Source: Parapedobacter composti
Lineage (GTDB): Bacteria; Bacteroidota; Bacteroidia; Sphingobacteriales; Sphingobacteriaceae
Length of the DNA: 64,000 nt
Assembly: GCF_900112315.1 (NCBI RefSeq)
Contig: NZ_FOLL01000010.1
Location: forward strand, 62,001-126,000
Reading direction: 5' to 3'
Part shown: piece after piece, positions 28,886 to 55,683 of the stretch
Position numbering within the stretch: the stretch's first letter is position 1
Layout of the letters: each line of letters opens with the position of its first letter
The notes under the pieces: model-generated
Seen by the model: only the letters and a program-made list of their open reading frames with translations
What the model was told of the DNA's origin: nothing
Database searches by the model: none
Translations under genes and position numbers: made by a program

Positions 28886-28919
28886 AAAAAAGCCCGACGA
28901 TCTTGTGGGAAAGTCGGGC
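28886..28919 (-). terminator. trp attenuator: terminator hairpin before trpE
   Basis: Transcribed on the minus strand: arms GCCCGAC (28913-28919) and GTCGGGC (28892-28898) around a 14-nt loop, followed by six U (28886-28891). The 5' arm (GGCCCGAC) can instead pair over 8 bp, one of them G-U, with GUCGGGUC inside the trpL coding sequence (28968-28975), giving a mutually exclusive antiterminator. This is the classical attenuation geometry. Confidence 0.9.
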
Positions 28920-28942
28920 CAAATATTCCAAGCTTTGGTTGA

Positions 28943-29020
28943 TTAGGAATACGTTATTGCTCCTACAGACCCGACGTTACATTTGCCGAGCCACCACCAC
29001 GAATCGATGCGGAACTTCAT
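28943..29020 (-). CDS. trpL: trp operon leader peptide with three consecutive Trp codons
   Basis: A 25-residue frame, ATG at 29020, TAA at 28943-28945, beginning MKFRIDSWWWLGK. The three TGG codons are residues 8-10 (28991-28999). A ribosome stalled there for lack of charged tRNA-Trp would leave the downstream segment of the coding region (residues 15-18) free to pair with the 5' arm of the terminator, so trpE is transcribed; with ample tryptophan the ribosome runs on and the terminator forms. The peptide itself probably has no other role. Three adjacent Trp codons before a Trp operon are very unlikely by chance. Confidence 0.93.
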   Translation of the reverse strand: MKFRIDSWWWLGKCNVGSVGAITYS

Positions 29021-29035
29021 TATCAACATACACCG

Positions 29036-29065
29036 CAAATTTATAAAAAAATCTGATTAAACAAA
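29036..29065 (-). promoter_or_regulatory. trp operon promoter
   Basis: On the minus strand TTTG (29062-29065) and TAAATTTG (29036-29043) are separated by 18 nt, a good fit to the Bacteroidota -33/-7 pattern. Transcription should begin about 5 nt below the -7 element, leaving roughly 10 nt before the trpL ATG. Confidence 0.75.
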
Positions 29066-29882: not shown

Positions 29883-32204
29883 TTATACCGCTTCGGCTAC
29901 GCCGCGGAGCGTCTTAGCGGCATCTACCATGGCTTCCAGCGCCGCCTTGGTTTCCGGCCATGCGCGGGTTTTCAAGCCGCAATCGGGATTTACCCATAAC
30001 TGCCCGGCGGGAATAACCGCTTTCGCTTTTTCCAGTAGTTTGACCATCTCTTCTTTGTTGGGTACGCGTGGGGAGTGGATGTCATATACCCCCGGACCAA
30101 TATCGTTCGGATAGTTGAAATCCGCAAACGCATCAAGCAGTTCCATCTGTGAACGAGAGGTCTCAATGGTAATCACATCGGCATCCATGGCGGCGATGTG
30201 TTCAATGATATCGTTAAACTCGGAATAGCACATATGCGTATGGATTTGCGTATCGTCTTCTACATTGGATGAAGACACACGGAACGCACGCACTGCCCAA
30301 TCAAGGTATGCTTTATGATCTGCCTTACGCAGCGGAAGCCCTTCTCGGATGGCAGGTTCATCAATCTGGATAATTTTGATGCCCGCTTTTTCCAACGCCT
30401 GCACCTCATCCAAGATAGCGAGTGCAATTTGGTAGGTTGTTTCAGAACGTGGCTGGTCGTTGCGCACAAACGACCATTGCAAGATAGTAACGGGCCCGGT
30501 GAGCATGCCCTTGACAGGACGATTGGTCAGCGACTGTGCGTAGGCGGACCAACGTACGGTCATGTCTGCGGGACGGCTCACATCACCGTAGATAATGGGG
30601 GGCTTCACGCAACGCGAGCCGTAAGATTGAACCCATCCGTTTTTGGTGAAGGCATATCCCGAGAGTTGCTCGCCGAAATATTCCACCATGTCATTGCGTT
30701 CAAACTCGCCGTGTACCAGCACATCAATATCCAATTCTTCCTGCAGGCGAATGGTGCGTTCGGTTTCTTCCGCGATGAACTGATCATACTCATCCTGGGT
30801 GATAACCCCCTTCTTCAAGTCGGCACGCCACTTACGGACATCGCGTGTTTGCGGGAACGAACCGATGGTGGTGGTAGCAAAGGCGGGCAGGTTAAACCGT
30901 GCTTGTTGCTTTGCCTTGCGGGCGGGGAAGGGGCTTGTGCGCGTAGCGTCATCATCTGTGATGCCCTTAACGCGTGCTTTTACCTCATCGCGGTGTATCA
31001 GCCTGGAGGTGCGGCGGCTTTGCTGAGCCGCTTTATTGGCCTCAAAACGCGCTTGTGTAGCGGCGTCTGCCTCACCGGCGGCCAGCCTTGCCAAATCGGT
31101 CACCTCGGCGAGTTTCTGTTTGGCGAAAGCCAACCAGTTTTTCACTTCAGCGGGAAGCGATTGTTCGTTGTCTTCCAAGTCTAGATCAAACGGAACATGA
31201 AGCAGGGAACACGAGGGTGCAACCCACACGCGCTCTGACCCGAGTGCATCCACAGCCAACTTGATTTGCTGGAGTGCAGTTTCGTAATCGTTCTTCCAGA
31301 TGTTACGGCCATCTACGACGCCCAATGAGAGCGTTAGGCCCGCCGGCACGGCCGGCAGGATTTCGGCAAGTTGCTTTTCACCGCGGACCAAATCAATGTG
31401 CAGCGCCTGCACCGGCAGGGCCAGTGCTGTTTCTGCATTTTCACGAAGCGATTCAAAATAGGTAGTGACCGACAATTTAAGACCTTCGGCTGCGGCCGCA
31501 AGGCGGCTGTATACACGCTGGTAGAGTTGGCGGGTGCGGTCATCGATATCCAGCGCAAGGAACGGTTCGTCAAGCTGCACCCATTCCGCGCCAGCCGCGG
31601 CGAGTTTACCGAGAATTTCTTCATATACCGGCAGCAAACGGTCAATCAGATCAAGGCGATGGAAGCCAGACGCTTTCTCTTTACCCAACAGCAGGTAAGT
31701 TATCGGGCCGATCAGCACGGGCTTGGTAATGATGCCTAACTGCTTGGCCTCGTTAAATTCGTTGATTACCTTTTCTGAGGTAAGGCTGAATTGCTGATCT
31801 TTTACAAATTCAGGAACGATATAGTGGTAATTGGTATCGAACCACTTGGTCATTTCCATGGCCGTTACGTCAAGGCCTTCTTGCTGGAAGCCGCGGGCCA
31901 TGGCGAAATATAGATCCAGGTTGTAGGATGACGGCCCTTCCAAAGTGAATCCATGATAACGTGTGGGAATTGCGCCCACGGTAAGCGTAAGGTCAAGCAC
32001 CTGATCGTAGAACGAAAAGTCATTGGAAGGAATCAGGTTGATGCCTGCTTCCCGCTGGGTCTTCCAATTATTCTCTCGGATAATGCGTGCCGCTTCCAGC
32101 AGCTCCCTTTGCCCAATCTTTTTCGCCCAATAGGCTTCATTAGCCTTTTTAAGTTCGCGTAAGGCTCCGATACGCGGATAACCCAAATTATTGGTTTTTA
32201 ACAT
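29883..32204 (-). CDS. metE: Cobalamin-independent methionine synthase
   Basis: MetE, 773 residues, transfers the methyl group of 5-methyltetrahydropteroyl-polyglutamate to homocysteine. N-terminal half from NLGYPRIGALRELKKANE; C-terminal catalytic half from TTTIGSFPQTRDVRKWR, with LVHGEFERNDMVEYFGEQL, KGMLTGPVTILQWSF, IIQIDEPAIREGLP, and the zinc ligands in HTHMCYSEF (His, Cys) and VNPDCGLKTR (Cys). Full length, with start MLKTNN. A SAM-I riboswitch lies in the 240-nt leader, so expression should fall when SAM is plentiful. Ends at a strong terminator. Confidence 0.97.
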   Translation of the reverse strand: MLKTNNLGYPRIGALRELKKANEAYWAKKIGQRELLEAARIIRENNWKTQREAGINLIPSNDFSFYDQVLDLTLTVGAIPTRYHGFTLEGPSSYNLDLYFAMARGFQQEGLDVTAMEMTKWFDTNYHYIVPEFVKDQQFSLTSEKVINEFNEAKQLGIITKPVLIGPITYLLLGKEKASGFHRLDLIDRLLPVYEEILGKLAAAGAEWVQLDEPFLALDIDDRTRQLYQRVYSRLAAAAEGLKLSVTTYFESLRENAETALALPVQALHIDLVRGEKQLAEILPAVPAGLTLSLGVVDGRNIWKNDYETALQQIKLAVDALGSERVWVAPSCSLLHVPFDLDLEDNEQSLPAEVKNWLAFAKQKLAEVTDLARLAAGEADAATQARFEANKAAQQSRRTSRLIHRDEVKARVKGITDDDATRTSPFPARKAKQQARFNLPAFATTTIGSFPQTRDVRKWRADLKKGVITQDEYDQFIAEETERTIRLQEELDIDVLVHGEFERNDMVEYFGEQLSGYAFTKNGWVQSYGSRCVKPPIIYGDVSRPADMTVRWSAYAQSLTNRPVKGMLTGPVTILQWSFVRNDQPRSETTYQIALAILDEVQALEKAGIKIIQIDEPAIREGLPLRKADHKAYLDWAVRAFRVSSSNVEDDTQIHTHMCYSEFNDIIEHIAAMDADVITIETSRSQMELLDAFADFNYPNDIGPGVYDIHSPRVPNKEEMVKLLEKAKAVIPAGQLWVNPDCGLKTRAWPETKAALEAMVDAAKTLRGVAEAV

Positions 32205-32289
32205 GAGGATATAAATAAAGTATGATAATTTACAACACCACTGTTTTATTGCTTGCTTTGGGGAGAGGGCACAAGGGTGAGTTGTGTCT

Positions 32290-32392
32290 GCTTATTTTTC
32301 CCGCCTGCCGACGGGTAGAATTTAGCACCTTGTCTGGTGACAGGTTGCTAAGGCTTCACAGGGTCCATTCCCTCTGCCTTTCTCCATAAGCG
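32290..32392 (-). promoter_or_regulatory. SAM-I (S-box) riboswitch before metE
   Basis: On the minus strand the S-box core is present in order: GCUUAU (P1 5' arm), GGCAGAGGGAAUGGACCC, UGAAGCCUUAGCAACC, then GGUGCUAAAUUCUACC, the P4 hairpin CCCG...CGGG, and AUAAGC closing P1 (6 bp, GCUUAU with AUAAGC). This agrees with SAM-I aptamers by recall. The 85 nt between aptamer and metE (32205-32289) hold no clear U-tract terminator, so control may act on translation or on a structure I cannot resolve by eye. Confidence 0.88.
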
Positions 32393-55604: not shown

Positions 55605-55611
55605 TATCTTG

Positions 55612-55683
55612 TAGCCTCGACAGGAATCGAACCTGTATCAAAAGTTTAGGAAACTTCTATTCTATCCATTGAACTACGAGGCC
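55612..55683 (-). tRNA. tRNA-Arg (anticodon CCU)
   Basis: Cloverleaf on the minus strand: acceptor GGCCTCG / CGAGGCT (7 bp, first pair G-U), D-arm with AGTTCAATGGATAGAA, anticodon loop TTCCTAA with anticodon CCT (55648-55650), T-arm ACAGG-TTCGATT-CCTGT and discriminator A. CCA is not encoded. Reads AGG codons. A U-tract terminator follows. Confidence 0.95.

Follow-up and report, generated by a model that had tools for sequence, protein, structure and literature searches.

A putative ribosome-mediated trp attenuator ahead of trpE-trpG-trpC in Parapedobacter composti, with a second ahead of trpD-F-B-A

The stretch of DNA considered here (the window; 64,000 nucleotides of a Parapedobacter composti contig) carries on its minus strand the short trp operon trpE-trpG-trpC, preceded by a leader that lies between the last base of trmD (29088) and the trpE ATG (28864); all coordinates refer to the plus strand of the window. 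The best match of trpE (anthranilate synthase component I; 28864-27455) is TIGR00564, at 430 bits and below the model cut-off of 517.7; trpG (anthranilate synthase component II; 27498-26743) and trpC (indole-3-glycerol phosphate synthase; 26869-25964) match TIGR00566 and NF001377, respectively, above cut-off. The closest named relatives belong to Parapedobacter, family Sphingobacteriaceae, with TrpE identities of 86-89% (loci L001-L006). Upstream of the leader, trmD lies on the same strand, and the next gene beyond it, also on that strand, is metE (29883-32204), itself preceded by a SAM riboswitch (RF00162, 78.8 bits; 32289-32392, minus strand). The only tRNA gene that ARAGORN reports in the window is a tRNA-Arg (CCU) at 55611-55683, minus strand.

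A promoter of the Bacteroidota sigma-A type is predicted at the start of the leader, on the minus strand like all the elements that follow. Its -33 element, TTTG (29065-29062), is kept in the leader alignments and follows the consensus given in an excerpt of PMC7366714; its -7 element, TAAATTTG (29043-29036), has the form TAnnTTTG, a box located at -12 to -5 in Flavobacterium psychrophilum according to excerpts of PMC9723704. Placed from the -7 box, transcription would start at about 29031. The trpL leader open reading frame (ORF), MLIMKFRIDSWWWLGKCNVGSVGAITYS, would then run for 28 residues from 29029 to 28943, ending in a TAA stop codon at 28945-28943, and holds three consecutive TGG (Trp) codons at 28999-28991. 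A preliminary description of this DNA had given the frame 25 residues, the length obtained from an inner ATG at 29020 (codon 4). Its WWW codons stand; its start probably does not, since in an alignment of the window's leader with six Parapedobacter leaders ATG 29029 is invariant, whereas an inner ATG occupies codon 3 in four of those leaders and is missing in two (P. pyrenivorans and P. soli). The start codon is thus probably ATG 29029.

The remainder of the leader is made up of segments with alternative partners. Segment 1, GGCUCGGC (28992-28985), can pair over 8 bp with segment 2, GUCGGGUC (28975-28968), which lies inside the leader ORF; segment 2 can instead pair with segment 3, GGCCCGAC (28920-28913), giving the antiterminator; and segment 3 can pair with segment 4, GUCGGGCU (28898-28891), to form an intrinsic terminator whose segment 4 and U6 tract together occupy 28898-28886, the six T being at 28891-28886. 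A conserved linker element, UAAUCAACCAAAGC (28945-28932), was recognized in the leader alignments between segments 2 and 3. All the parts that the preliminary description claimed (promoter, WWW frame, segments and six-U terminator) are present, and its 2:3 and 3:4 pairings are borne out; it overlooked segment 1, with which the competing hairpins 1:2, 2:3, and 3:4 are all in place.

Conservation of the Trp codons was assessed in the best 80 of a larger number of loci retrieved, together with their upstream DNA, by a TrpE query, which with the window make 81. Two adjacent Trp codons (WW) occur in a short ORF upstream of trpE in 80 of these 81 loci, compared with 1.7% of 3240 dinucleotide shuffles and one of 79 control regions (taken 670-1000 nt upstream of those trpE genes); the lone exception, L065, has WYW instead. 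A looser criterion, at least two Trp codons in a short upstream ORF, holds for all 80 relatives' loci (the best 80 of more), but 20% of shuffles and 32 of the 79 control regions pass it as well, which is why adjacent WW is relied on here. By this measure the trp operon of the window is preceded by a short leader ORF in which Trp codons adjoin, as are those of nearly all its relatives.

This conservation bears on the simplest competing explanation, that the hairpin does no more than terminate trmD at its 3' end, the WWW frame being a chance occurrence and trpE transcribed from a promoter of its own with no tryptophan control. The position of trmD, a same-strand gene whose last base is 29088, would suit that explanation, as would a sigma-70 promoter and terminator scan, which returned a single promoter-like site, as many as chance would give. 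(The same scan, which has a loop limit of 8, called no terminator; the loop here is 14.) Against it stand the WW frequency just given, the sigma-A boxes, which lie between trmD and the hairpin and are kept in relatives, and the retained ability of segment 2 to pair with segment 3; we consider it extremely improbable. An attenuator controlling trpEGC remains the preferred reading, and its pairings were examined individually.

In the window the terminator hairpin 3:4 has a folding energy of -15.7 kcal/mol (z -4.4; equalled by 0 of 200 shuffles), the 1:2 hairpin -10.3 kcal/mol (z -3.4; 1 of 200), and the 2:3 region, inner hairpins included, -18.2 kcal/mol (z -2.1; 8 of 200), each of these stretches having been chosen because it pairs. 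The stability of the leader as a whole is unremarkable (z -1.13; 25 of 200 shuffles). In constrained folding of an RNA that ends shortly after segment 3, the probability of the 2:3 pairing is 0.99 with a ribosome footprint on any of the Trp codons, 0.94 without a ribosome, and 0.99 with a ribosome at the stop codon. In RNA that includes segment 4, the terminator dominates at equilibrium (0.88-0.97) in every ribosome state. Folding in both states, which the preliminary description had proposed, therefore recovers the alternative pairings and, at equilibrium, does not tell the stalled from the unstalled state. Since the states are alike at equilibrium, the attenuation model rests on co-transcriptional timing; attenuator switching depends on timing during transcription in other attenuators as well. 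The ORF reads through segment 2 in the window, and among 53 leaders its stop codon falls between 13 nt before and 25 nt after the last G column of segment 2 (median 9 after).

These 53 leaders form alignment A2, a non-redundant set reduced from 79 at 90% identity. L032 and L033, two of the 81 trpE leaders, are absent from it; both do have leaders, which the regular expression used for terminators missed. The terminator stem covaries strongly: 97.5% of alignment cells are paired, and the 35 double changes compare with 11.5 for shuffles (0 of 500). On a quick TrpE tree the pair types between segments 3 and 4 change 2, 8, and 7 times at the three pairs listed of four tested; an intrinsic terminator between the leader ORF and the first gene is thereby a feature of the family as well as of the window. 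The preliminary description had named a lack of conserved Trp codons and of stem covariation as evidence that would count against attenuation; instead WW is nearly universal and the terminator stem covaries.

The antiterminator and the terminator are mutually exclusive; the antiterminator is conserved, with covariation inside the family that is modest. Scored by columns of A2, 68.1% of 2:3 cells are paired, with 17 double changes against 10.5 in shuffles (11 of 500), counts that are lowered by rows, such as L026, L062, and L063, that appear misaligned near segment 2; the 2:3 covariation score is ordinary in the 53 leaders, being reached by 77 of 500 shuffles. A comparison of duplex energies is more favorable: segment 2 pairs with its own segment 3 at -12.4 kcal/mol and with swapped partners at -10.9 (0 of 10,000 permutations, kinship uncorrected), and the window's own duplex reaches -16.1 against -7.9 for shuffles. 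In L063, L017, L034, and L059 the pairing is little better than in shuffles, or worse. A hand-picked set of 11 leaders, drawn from five family groups and mostly differing in their segments, gave -15.5 against -10.9 with swapped partners (0 of 10,000, kinship uncorrected), the partner stretch being taken as the terminator 5' arm plus loop; the own partner was the best one in only four of the 11 rows. The design is thus conserved ahead of trpE in Sphingobacteriaceae, and other segments serve in further Bacteroidota family groups, for example CAGUGG/CCCACUG in family group f22 compared with GUCGGG/CCCGAC here. The f22 trpE leaders with these segments are L114-L117, L120-L123, L126, L128, L130, L131, and L133-L135. 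Tree-aware pair tests gave no significance for 3:4 and 2:3 alike, the independent pairs being too few.

For the 1:2 hairpin, 53.1% of A2 cells are paired and 23 double changes stand against 13.2 in shuffles (3 of 500); a control in which the partner was slid by 3 columns gave 34, more than the actual arrangement, so that the signal for 1:2 in the family alignment appears weak. A segment 1 beside the Trp codons that pairs with segment 2 is clear in the window and in the trpD leader described below.

The predicted start site leaves a very short 5' untranslated region (UTR) before the trpL ATG. With a strict TAnnTTTG box and an in-frame ATG, 73 of the 81 trpE leaders could be scored (8 could not), and the predicted 5' UTR is shorter than 10 nt in 72 of the 73, with a median of 3 nt and a value of 2 nt for the window; boxes were chosen for their closeness to the start, which favors short values. 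The single long value (61, in L018) resembles a misassigned box. As background, 5' UTRs shorter than 10 nt make up about 3.7% of those in B. thetaiotaomicron, and 5.5% of F. psychrophilum mRNAs are leaderless, according to excerpts of PMC7366714 and PMC9723704, respectively. trpL is accordingly predicted to be near-leaderless. This predicted design is shared with Sinorhizobium meliloti (excerpts of PMC7298713), where the attenuated RNA rnTrpL and the peptide peTrpL are reported to act in trans, and a leader peptide or short attenuated RNA acting in trans here, besides or instead of in cis, could be imagined on that ground. Apart from the run of Trp residues and the stretch encoded by segment 2, the peptides vary widely among genera, which argues against a trans function; we consider one highly improbable.

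The linker between segments 2 and 3, UAAUCAACCAAARCC in consensus, stands out by its conservation: A2 columns 114-124 carry 1.0-1.9 bits, mostly well above the flanking linker, and no pairing that accounts for this was found. It is present in Parapedobacter other than P. koreensis and P. luteus, where it is mostly gone, and in the majority of rows from Sphingobacterium and Olivibacter; other rows show variants. The genome contains the exact motif AATCAACCAAARC a single time, in the window's leader, and the idea that the linker is a general genome element was rejected; with at most one mismatch there are 34 genome sites, compared with 13 for a reversed control. Pairing between the linker and the Trp codons (CCAAAACCA with UGGUGGUGG) was also considered, prompted by UGC/GCAAAACC in Daejeonella, which looks compensatory, and rejected because L059 combines UGC with CCAAAACC, L035 combines CGA with GCAAAAUC, and L037 resembles L035.

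The information content of the linker and the uniqueness of its exact motif would be expected if a protein or other factor bound it as the main sensor, the Trp codons making adjustments only. The linker is, however, mostly lost in P. koreensis and P. luteus and changed in Mucilaginibacter, where the Trp codons stay, and it is not apparent in matches to RF01692, in which Trp codons are present; a linker-based sensor is for these reasons quite improbable, and the Trp codons are preferred as the sensing element. A different role for the linker can be suggested as speculation that we think unlikely: that Sphingobacteriaceae have two independent leaderless attenuators free of a Shine-Dalgarno sequence, one for each half of the trp genes, and that the linker of the trpE leader binds a factor or pauses RNA polymerase, keeping ribosome and polymerase in step.

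The remaining trp genes lie elsewhere, as the preliminary description had supposed, in a trpD-F-B-A operon with an attenuator of its own. A search model built from A2 and run on the source genome gave seven matches at E <= 1: the window's leader, at 82.6 bits, a second full-length match on another contig (G000:C59:10587-10717; L102 1501-1631) at 31.5 bits and E 5e-4, and five weaker partial matches, in which hairpins are present and no W-rich frame was seen. The second leader encodes the peptide MIFQTGHITWWWHSN, again with WWW, after a predicted 5' UTR of 11 nt. Its 1:2 hairpin is CACAGCA/UGCUGUG, with the stop codon in the loop, its 2:3 pairing is UGGCAA/UUGCCA, and its terminator has an energy of -12.9 kcal/mol (0 of 200 shuffles). 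Downstream lie trpD, trpF, trpB, and trpA, of which trpF matches below model cut-offs. Judged by these sequence features, both trp operons found in the source genome carry an attenuator.

The second leader is likewise not confined to this genome. trpD was found in 49 of 61 family genomes, and the region ahead of it holds a short ORF containing two or more Trp codons in 44 of the 49 (21.3% of 1960 shuffles) and WW in 41 (2.5% of 1960 shuffles); 3 of the 44 leaders, L159, L162, and L187, have W-x-W only. The terminator was found by scan in 43 of the 44. The 43 of 49 trpD regions that entered the 2:3 test exclude L177 (a leader without a terminator by scan), L178, L179, L180, and L185 (no W-rich ORF), and L147, whose contig ends about 183 nt upstream; in L144 the script took the wrong frame. 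Pairing with the own partner averaged -12.0 against -11.2 when swapped (30 of 10,000; n = 43), and 28 of the 43 rows fall within the best 5% of their own shuffles. With a looser promoter box, 41 of 49 trpD leaders could be scored, 32 of them with a predicted 5' UTR shorter than 10 nt (median 7).

Conservation of the Trp codons, covariation of the terminator, and the 2:3 pairing together back ribosome-mediated attenuation of trpEGC, the claim made in the preliminary description, and we are highly confident that the window's leader is a classical attenuator of this kind. The parts, their conservation, the alternative pairings, and the second attenuator come from the sequence and its comparison with relatives; from them we infer a start site, translation, stalling, termination, and a tryptophan response that would proceed as follows. 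RNA polymerase would start near 29031, a few bases ahead of the trpL AUG, and a ribosome would load at the extreme 5' end of the RNA and trail the polymerase. When charged tRNA-Trp is scarce, the ribosome would stall on the three UGG codons and mask segment 1; segment 2 would then be free to pair with segment 3 while segment 4 is still to be transcribed, and the polymerase would read on into trpE-trpG-trpC. With tRNA-Trp charged, the ribosome would move through segment 2 in the direction of the stop codon, which lies between segments 2 and 3; segment 3 would pair with segment 4 and transcription would end in the U tract. The second attenuator, of the same design, would control trpD-F-B-A on its own contig, so that both halves of the pathway would answer the same signal. 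Two attenuators and a near-leaderless ORF in one genome would offer a compact natural test of ribosome-polymerase coupling without a Shine-Dalgarno start. Searches of the source genome, which is 99.64% complete, found no TrpR, TRAP, or T-box.

Among known systems, the reference is the E. coli trp attenuator, in which a leader ORF with adjacent Trp codons, segments 1-4, and a U-tract terminator stand ahead of trpE. The window's leader differs from it in having three Trp codons, a predicted 5' UTR of about 2 nt, and an ORF that runs through segment 2, and the source genome differs in that no TrpR was found in it. The corresponding model, RF00513 (Trp_leader), has a match spanning the same stretch as the window's leader at 16.5 bits and E 0.81, below its gathering score of 41. 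Pseudomonas putida likewise splits its trp genes, into trpE and trpGDC, both said to be attenuated; it belongs to another phylum and has another gene order.

Within the phylum, the A2 model matches 99 of 296 genomes at E <= 0.001, a number of the weaker matches covering the 3' part only, and 27 of the 29 best foreign loci adjoin a trpE relative. A second Rfam model, RF01692 (Bacteroid-trp), was described in 2010 (excerpts of PMC2864571). It matches 17 of 198 sampled phylum genomes (15 above cut-off), all in one family group, f4, presumably Flavobacteriaceae. Like the window's leader, its members are Bacteroidota sequences with a WWW peptide (NTWWW or HTWWW in 10 of 10 loci fetched) and a U-tract terminator, and a trpE-like frame comes next in the five loci read downstream by eye; they differ in their segments and in a predicted 5' UTR of 12-14 nt in 8 of 10 loci and 1 nt in the other 2. 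RF01692 has no match in the source genome at E <= 0.001, none in the window at its gathering score (49 bits), and none at that score in the 20 tested of the 80 relatives' loci, so that the window's leader and those 20 loci escape the gathering scores of Rfam 15. For F. psychrophilum, signs of leader-peptide attenuation ahead of amino-acid operons have been reported (PMC9723704), in a main text in which "trp" is absent. The preliminary description had held a WWW leader in a Bacteroidota trp operon to be worth recording as such, a framing overtaken by RF01692, which holds WWW leaders of another family of the phylum, and by the F. psychrophilum signs. In the titles and passages of open-licence literature, where the group was named in a small part of the search, no report of a trp attenuator in Sphingobacteriaceae was found.

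WWW trpE leaders in Bacteroidota and a leaderless WWW trpL in Streptomyces are thus already known; what is of interest here is the pairing of attenuators and the predicted leaderless design. According to excerpts of PMC8079986, trpL1 of S. lividans also encodes a WWW leader peptide ahead of trpE, is leaderless, and has a seemingly Rho-independent terminator; it is actinobacterial, precedes trpE alone, and has its counterpart in a second Trp leader before trpS rather than trpD. S. meliloti trpLE(G), in the excerpts of PMC7298713, shares a 5' end at the trpL ATG, attenuation of trpE(G), split trp genes, and no repression of transcription, and differs in that, of three trp operons, only one is attenuated, compared with both operons found here.
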